Source: Bacillota bacterium
Lineage (GTDB): Bacteria; Bacillota; Clostridia; Saccharofermentanales; UBA5734
Direction: 5' to 3'
DNA length: 44,769 bases
Assembly: GCA_029548445.1 (NCBI GenBank)
Contig: JAKPNJ010000357.1
Span: 1 to 44,769 of the forward strand
Below are positions 17,532 through 20,500 of this stretch, one piece after another. Under the pieces are notes generated by a model. That model did no database searches, had not been told where the DNA came from, and saw nothing but the letters and a program-made list of their open reading frames with translations. Both the position numbers and the translations under genes were made by a program. How positions within the stretch are numbered: position 1 is the first letter of the stretch; the number at the start of each line of letters is the position of its first letter.

Positions 17532-20500
17532 ATGTTCGTCGAGAAGCACTGGGAAGACCCGAACACGCTCCATGTGGGCTGCGAACCGCCCCGGGCCTAT
17601 TTTGTCCCCCACTCGTCGGAGGCCTCGGCCGCCACCGGCGAACGGGGGCTTTCGGACCGCTTCACGAGCCTCAACGGCATCTGGCGGTTCCGGTACCATC
17701 CGTCCGTGGAGGAAGTGGTTCCCGGATTCCAGGAGGACGGGTTCGATGCGTCGTCCTGGGACGCGATCCCCGTGCCCTCCAACTGGCAGATGCTGGGGTA
17801 TGACAAGCCCCTCTATTCCTGCCTCGACTACCCGTTCCCCATCGACCCGCCCCGGGTACCGGCCGGGAACCCCGTCGGCCTATACCGAACCGACTTCCAC
17901 CTGGACGACCCGGGAACCGACGACCGATTCCTGGTCTTCGACGGCGTCGATTCCTGCTTCTACCTGTGGGTAAACGGCGCCTATGTCGGGTACAGCCAGG
18001 TCAGCCACATGACCAGTGAATTCGACATTACATCCCATGTGCGGGCCGGCTCGAACCGGATCGCCGTCATGGTCCTGAAATGGTGCGACGGCACCTATCT
18101 CGAGGACCAGGACATGTGGCGGCTGTCCGGCATTTTCCGGGATGTCTCCCTGCTGCGCCGCAGCCGGGAGCGGGTGACGGACCTCTTCGTTCGGACGGCC
18201 CTGTCGCCCGATTTCGGGAAGGCGGGGCTCCGGGTCGAGCTGCGAACCCGGGGAACGGTCGACGTGGATGCCCGTCTCCTGGCCCCTGACGGATCCCTGG
18301 CAGCCTCGGGCTCCCTCCGGGTCACGGAAGCCGGGGCCCTCCACATGGAGGTGGTGGCACCGGCCCTCTGGAGCGCGGAGAGGCCGGACCTGTACCGGCT
18401 CTTCCTCCGGTGCGGCGAGGAATGGATTGTGGAGGATGTGGGGTTCCGGCGCATCGAGGTAGCGGACGGCTGCATCCTGCTCAACGGGCGAAAAGTGAAA
18501 TTCCGGGGCGCCAACCGCCACGACACCCATCCCTACCTGGGCCATTACGTGACGCTGGAACACATGGAAGCGGACCTCCGCCTGATGAAGCAGCACAACC
18601 TGAACGCCGTCCGGACCTCCCACTACCCCAACGACCCCCGATTCTACTCCCTTTGCGACCGGATGGGGCTCTATGTCATGGACGAGGCCGACCTGGAACA
18701 CAACGGCTTCTGGCCCTATCCCCAGGAGGAGCAGCCCAGCGACCTGCCCCTGTGGCGGAACGCCTACATGGACCGGATGGTCCGGATGGTGGAGCGGGAC
18801 AAGAATCGCCCCTGCATCGTCTTCTGGTCCCTGGGAAACGAATCGCGCTACGGGCACAACCACGAGGAAATCGCCCGCTGGACCAAGGCCCGGGACGCCT
18901 CCCGGCTTCTCCACTACGAAGGGGCGTGGGATTACGAGAAGCGGTTCGACACCCGTTTCGACGGCCGGTACGATACGTCCATGCTGGATGTCCTGAGCCG
19001 GATGTATCCCGACATCGAGTGGCTCCGGAAGGAAGTCGTGGAGTTCGACGGCCCTGCCATGCCGATGGTCCTGTGCGAATACAGCCACGCCATGGGCAAC
19101 GGGCCGGGCGACACGGGGGATTACTGGGACCTGATCGATGCCACCGACCGGATCGCCGGGGCCTGGGCCTGGGAATGGGCCGACCACACGATCCGGGCCA
19201 GGCGGTACCGGGACGGAGACGGCAATCCGGCCTGGAAGCCGGTGGTCCTCTGCGAGTACGCCGCGGCGGTGGGTCATGGGCCCGGCGATGTGGCCGACTA
19301 CTGGGAGGTCATCGACGGCACCGACCGGATCGGGGGCGCCTGGGCCTGGGAGTGGGCCGACCACACAGTCCGGAAGCGCCTCCCCGACGGCCGTGTCGTG
19401 AACACCTACGGCGGCGACTTCGGGGACTGGCCCAATTCCGGCAACTACTGCATCGACGGGCTGGTCACGCCGGACCGGGAGCCGTCCACCGGGCTGCTGG
19501 AGCTGAAGCAGGTCGCAGCCCCCATCCGGCTGGAATGGCAGGGGGATTCGATCCTGGTCCGGAACCGGAACTGCTTTGAACCCCTCCGGGATGTGGAACT
19601 CCTGGTGGCCTGGATGGTCGACGGTCGGCCGCGCCATGAAGTCCGCCTCGACTGCCCGCCGGTCCCGGCGGGAGACGGAATGCCGGTCCGGCTGCCGGCG
19701 CCGCCGGCCTGGGTCATGGCCGGGCCCGCCCTGCGGCACCTGCTGGTCCGGTGCCTCCAGGCGAAGCGGACGCCCTGGTGCGAGCCCGGCCATGAAATCG
19801 CCTTCGCCCAATTCCTGCTGGAGGACACCCGGGTCCGGACCACGCCGGATCCCGCCGGGATGCCGCCGCTCCGGGTCCAGCGCCGGGACGGGGAGGTCCT
19901 GGTCCGGGGAACGGATTTCGCCTATGGATTCGATCTTCGGAAAGGCACCTTCGTCCGGATCGACAAGGCCGGATGGCCCCTCCTGGCGAACCCCCTGGAT
20001 TTCGAGATTTTCCGGGGCCTCCTGGACAACGACAACGTGATCCGCAGGGACTGGCTCCGGGAGCGGCTTGACCGGGTGACCACCCGGGTCGTGGACGCCG
20101 CGGAGGCGGAGGGCCCGGCGGGGACGGTCCGGTTCCGGACCCGGTACGCAATGGGAGCCGCGAACCAGGTGCCCATCCTCCGGGGCGAGGCGGACTGGAC
20201 GGTCTATGGCAACGGCGACATCCTCCTCGATACCCGGGTGGATGTCCGGAAGGACGCGCCCTACCTGCCCCGGTTCGGCCTCCGGATCGAGATGCCTGCG
20301 GGATACGAAACCGTGGAATACCTCGGCAACGGCCCCTGGGACAGCTATGTCGACATGCACCGCCTCTGCTGGAAAGGCCGGTTCGAGTCGACAGTGGACG
20401 CCCTTTTCACGGATTACATCGTCCCCCAGGAAAACGGCAGCCACAACGGCACCGAATGGGTCGCGGTCCGGAACCTGTACGGGATCGGCCTGGCGGCCTC

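Follow-up and report, generated by a model that had tools for sequence, protein, structure and literature searches.

A LacZ-type beta-galactosidase with a tandemly duplicated nucleophile unit in a bacterial carbohydrate-use gene cluster

The window (the whole stretch of 44,769 nucleotides analysed here, from a draft genome of Bacillota) contains a gene for a GH2 LacZ-type beta-galactosidase in which the segment carrying the catalytic nucleophile is present twice in tandem, and this LacZ variant with a doubled nucleophile unit is new and so far unique. We consider it probable that the second copy arose by an intragenic duplication, with copy 1 lying in the TIM barrel as the catalytic unit and copy 2 having been kept as an accessory element. 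The features discussed below are collected in Table 1.

Table 1. Positions of the features in the window
Feature	Position	Strand	Remark
LacI-family regulator	9557-10771		
ABC permeases, two	12833-13771, 13784-14671		
MGH1-like hydrolase	14708-16432		
URO-D/MtaA-like methyltransferase-family protein	16429-17511		Within the glycoside hydrolase cluster
GH2 LacZ-type beta-galactosidase gene	17532..20777	+	1081 aa; open reading frame and translation, Pfam
Cys97	17820-17822	+	E. coli Asn102 equivalent; Cys in 0/110 homologues; Asn, Asp, Ser or Gly in all homologues
Asn391	18702..18704	+	H418 equivalent (Mg2+-ligand His in E. coli); His in 110/110 homologues
Acid/base Glu437 codon	18840..18842	+	E. 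coli Glu461
Copy 1, residues 511-557	19062..19202	+	beta7 with Glu516, alpha7, beta8; all family-invariant residues present
Nucleophile Glu516 codon, copy 1	19077..19079	+	E. coli Glu537
Linker, residues 558-569	19203..19238	+	Probable remnant of copy 1 tail
Copy 2, residues 570-616	19239..19379	+	Glu575 and structural invariants kept; His, Met and Asn lost
Glu575 codon, copy 2	19254..19256	+	Second nucleophile-like Glu
Ala578, Ala579, Val580, Gly581, His582, copy 2	19263..19277	+	Spans the equivalents of H540, M542 and N544
YGGDFGD motif, residues 626-632	19407..19427	+	Normal GH2 sequence resumes
GH2 mannosidase-like protein	20779-23313		Start one base after the lacZ stop
GH31 enzyme	23268-25601		
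GH5 enzyme	29473-30531		

The protein and its doubled unit

The encoded protein has the full domain complement of GH2 LacZ proteins, with matches above gathering score to Glyco_hydro_2_N, Glyco_hydro_2, Glyco_hydro_2_C, LacZ_4 and Bgal_small_N in Pfam. Its closest solved structures in both PDB alignment and fold search are LacZ enzymes, the first being 9m0e (Paenibacillus barengoltzii beta-galactosidase, according to the fold search), against which the AF2 model has a TM-score of 0.97 by target length. Even the best scores for the curated NCBIfam LacZ equivalog/subfamily models fall below their cut-offs (905 bits vs 1284 for NF007666 and 844 vs 999 for NF052611). The acid/base Glu in the NES motif (Glu437) and the nucleophile Glu in the CEY motif of copy 1 (Glu516) are found at normal spacing, and both are invariant in homologue alignment A1. 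The protein resembles the P. barengoltzii and E. coli enzymes in its five domains, the acid/base and nucleophile Glu residues and the overall fold, but differs from them in having a second beta7-alpha7-beta8 unit, whereas one nucleophile unit per barrel is characteristic of GH2 LacZ proteins. The remaining features keep the family assignment, and the two-unit protein is a variant of GH2 LacZ.

Each unit runs from the nucleophile strand (PMVLCEY) through DYWDLID to the next strand; in terms of the TIM barrel these elements are beta7, which bears the nucleophile, alpha7 and beta8. The initial annotation had described tandem gap-free copies of this block, and both their coordinates and their identity proved right: direct BLASTP comparison gave 34/47 identical and 41/47 positive residues without gaps (E = 4e-27 for this single comparison), and a DNA repeat search recovered 19061-19196 and 19238-19373 at 77% identity. 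The copies are offset by 177 bp, which is exactly 59 codons, and similarity at this offset begins at ~19055 and fades beyond ~19195. Also as annotated, copy 1 lies at a normal distance from the acid/base residue, with 79 residues between Glu437 and Glu516 vs 76 in E. coli (461-537), whereas Glu575 of copy 2 is too far away (138 residues from Glu437) and yet the sequence runs on directly into YGGDFGD at residue 626, with a P...Y length of 56 residues, as usual. An ordinary GH2 alignment without an insert would have spoken against this picture, but the Pfam and PDB alignments split into two stretches at the duplication and do not absorb the insert, so the duplication stands. Since some relatives carry a similar loop ahead of YGGDF (E. 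coli-type DENGNPWSAYGGDF), the linker, which is joined directly to the KP that opens copy 2, looks like the tail of copy 1. Elsewhere in the protein, a short low-confidence stretch follows HYEGAW (residues 468-479, 18933-18968), where loop length varies among relatives.

Rarity and origin of the duplication

That a GH2 barrel with two nucleophile strands is very unusual, as had been proposed at the outset, agrees with all searches for a second case. Two nucleophile motifs were detected in only 1/124 open frames carrying the motif (from 151 loci), namely in the gene studied here, and a side-by-side print of the 122 homologue frames has one unit in each. The genome has three further LacZ-like genes (on C61, C163 and C264), none of which shows a second unit. 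With the doubled segment as query, 188 genomes of the order and 398 of the phylum yielded only single-unit matches besides the window, and a full-length search in 391 genomes of the class gave, among the matches listed, only sequences consistent with one unit. The family search lists 22 other genomes, every one from another genus. No relative was found in viral contigs searched with the doubled segment, and in the plasmid search both query copies fall, among the matches listed, on one stretch of ~200-250 bp, i.e., on one unit. No published case of an internal duplication in a beta-galactosidase with a TIM barrel turned up in a literature search. The nearest relatives in the N-terminal part, L125 (from a genome of the same class) and L104 (from an uncultured Clostridia MAG), at 56% and 54%, respectively, are also among the nearest for the C-terminal part (44% and 42%); both have a single unit with the usual GGFVWEW, whereas the window protein has GAWAWEW instead.

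The two copies are closer to each other (34/47) than to any homologue unit (copy 1 reaches 31/47 at best, copy 2 27/47), and they pair with a local support of 1.0 in a FastTree phylogeny of 117 units. Thr538/597 and Trp545/604 are common to both copies and occur in 0/115 homologue units, and the copies further share rare Ala, Ala, Thr and Ile residues elsewhere, several of which are found in <10% of homologue units. On either side of the repeat, N-terminal and C-terminal, the protein is nearest to one and the same set of relatives (L104, L125, L126, L127 and L040). Taken together, the sister relationship of the copies, their shared residues and the common relatives of the flanks point to an intragenic tandem duplication after the split from known relatives: an in-frame event of 177 bp within the lacZ gene would have copied beta7-alpha7-beta8 after this lineage diverged, and the product would have been retained for a long time.

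The initial annotation had also considered recombination between two beta-galactosidase genes, in which case two closely related lacZ genes might have contributed the N-terminal part with copy 1 and copy 2 with the C-terminal part, respectively. The 77% DNA identity between the copies might then predate the joining, and several further lacZ-like genes are present in the genome. However, the resident paralogues are distant (best 48% identity) and do not contain the sequence common to the copies, and all three were rejected as donors on these grounds; moreover, a normal donor would bring the His, Met and Asn residues found in 115/115 homologues, which are missing in copy 2. Because the flanks share the same relatives, the copies are sisters and the genome holds no donor paralogue, such a fusion is disfavoured and appears unlikely. 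A less simple alternative to the intragenic duplication would be a recent duplication of the whole gene, followed by fusion of the two genes and loss of one of them.

Constraint on the copies and their place in the barrel

Comparison of copy 1 with copy 2 over 47 codons (NG86) gave a Ka of 0.20 and a Ks of 0.91, with a bootstrap median omega of 0.21 (95% interval 0.07-0.52, wide for 47 codons) and a Ks range of 0.45-2.19. If the copies were born by intragenic duplication, this pattern implies that they have been diverging for a certain time under purifying selection; the duplication would therefore be old (Ks ~0.9, with its wide interval) but constrained, and it is the divergence between the copies from which a long persistence of the insert may be proposed. 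Nearly all of the change in the unit tree lies on copy 2 (branch length 0.40 vs about 0 for copy 1). Among ten unit positions that are near-invariant in 115 homologues, copy 1 has 10/10 and copy 2 has 7/10, the latter retaining Pro, Glu, Gly, Gly, Tyr, Gly and Trp. At the other three, copy 2 has Ala, Val and His (each in 0/115 homologues) in place of the His, Met and Asn corresponding to E. coli H540, M542 and N544. In E. coli LacZ, His540 and Met542 lie beside galactose in the active site. The loss of sugar-binding residues together with the retention of fold-forming ones suggests that copy 2 may serve as a structural or accessory element, a pattern unlike that of a drifting unconstrained loop.

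In the most likely arrangement, copy 1 lies in the barrel and provides the nucleophile Glu516 together with His519, Met521 and Asn523, whereas copy 2 would leave the barrel after beta8 and ahead of the YGGDFGD loop as an additional folded beta-alpha-beta excursion, with selection still acting on the residues that form its core and its sugar-binding residues lost. An AF2 model based on 45 homologues (mean pLDDT 87.9, pTM 0.89) has copy 1 in the barrel (beta512-516, alpha528-537 and beta541-547, pLDDT about 90) and leaves residues 557-615 as a low-confidence excursion, in which copy 2 has a pLDDT of 25-41 and no confident fold. However, the input alignment put every homologue unit on copy 1 and left copy 2 uncovered, so that this placement is biased and non-independent. 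MAFFT placed the homologue fragments on copy 1 (alignment A2) or on the N-terminal part (A3), and a run with essentially pre-repeat coverage, and practically none on either copy, gave a pLDDT <50 throughout both. Our preference for copy 1 is thus based on residue conservation and not on the AF2 model. The looped-out spare segment of the initial annotation is the best supported of its three readings as far as the looping out is concerned, and the barrel prediction that it called for has the same arrangement, within the bias described; whether it is really "spare" is questionable, given the apparent constraint on copy 2.

Beyond the repeat, the protein has deviating residues at 4/117 columns conserved in >=95% of 110 homologues. 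A striking one among them is the H418 position, where Asn stands instead of the conserved Mg2+-ligand His. Unlike E. coli LacZ, the protein also has Cys at the N102 position, and Tyr639 replaces E. coli Phe601 (Phe in 109/110 homologues). The remainder of the protein is intact and its reading frame is open. These active-site changes make beta-galactosidase activity uncertain, and the activity of the enzyme may be altered. The inactive enzyme of the initial annotation is one possible reading: copy 1 is intact, but the residues at the H418 and N102 positions occur in none of the relatives examined. The changes at these two positions would also fit an altered active site in which copy 2 took the place in the barrel and copy 1 was pushed out, with beta-galactosidase activity changed or absent. 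Such an arrangement would agree with the normal length from copy 2 up to YGGDFGD and with the Glu kept at its nucleophile position, but the full invariant set of copy 1 is hard to explain if this copy is unused, and most of the change in the unit tree has accumulated on copy 2; we therefore judge it quite unlikely.

With still lower probability, the copies might compete for one place in the barrel, so that an active fold containing copy 1 would be in equilibrium with an inactive one containing copy 2. The two are near-equivalent, their cores are constrained in both, and the full sugar-binding set is present in one only. The same logic underlies an engineered barnase (barnase-AFF), which has a duplicated fragment and Ala in place of one catalytic His, the duplicate being terminal and permitting a circular permutant (PMC10018487). 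The window LacZ resembles it in having a duplicated segment with a catalytic or binding residue missing from one copy, an arrangement typical of alternate frame folding switches, but it is a natural protein with an internal tandem copy, and switching here is a hypothesis drawn from analogy. There is only a very slight chance that it represents a natural two-state, alternate-frame-folding glycoside hydrolase in which the copies exchange in the barrel, the enzyme being active with copy 1 and inactive or altered in specificity with copy 2. Among engineered tandem repeats, T4 lysozyme reportedly hosts an internal secondary-structure duplicate by looping one copy out; that laboratory construct involved a single helix, whereas the window LacZ has a natural 59-residue beta-alpha-beta unit.

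Genomic setting and significance

The gene sits in a carbohydrate-use cluster (Table 1), a neighbourhood more in keeping with a working operon than with a pseudogene standing alone. A 543-aa open reading frame just upstream of the two ABC permeases (11120-12751) has no Pfam or NCBIfam match, and its position suggests a candidate solute-binding protein. The mannosidase-like neighbour has mannosidase-type N- and C-terminal GH2 Pfam domains, and at the threshold used it gave no Pfam match to the TIM-barrel domain. The joining of two alleles or strain genes during metagenome assembly might be considered for a draft genome of 359 contigs with 3.23% estimated contamination and an insert found in no other genome, but such an artefact is highly improbable, as the reading frame is exact, the offset equals whole codons, no long identical stretch between the copies could mislead the assembler, and copy 2 is without residues that any normal lacZ allele has.

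A TIM barrel would be expected to be wrecked by one more beta-alpha-beta unit in its catalytic half, and yet the doubled unit appears to have been retained across substantial synonymous divergence. If real, this protein would be a test case for the tolerance of the barrel to a second nucleophile strand, and it would test whether duplicates within a domain can acquire a structural or a switching function in natural proteins as well as in engineered ones.
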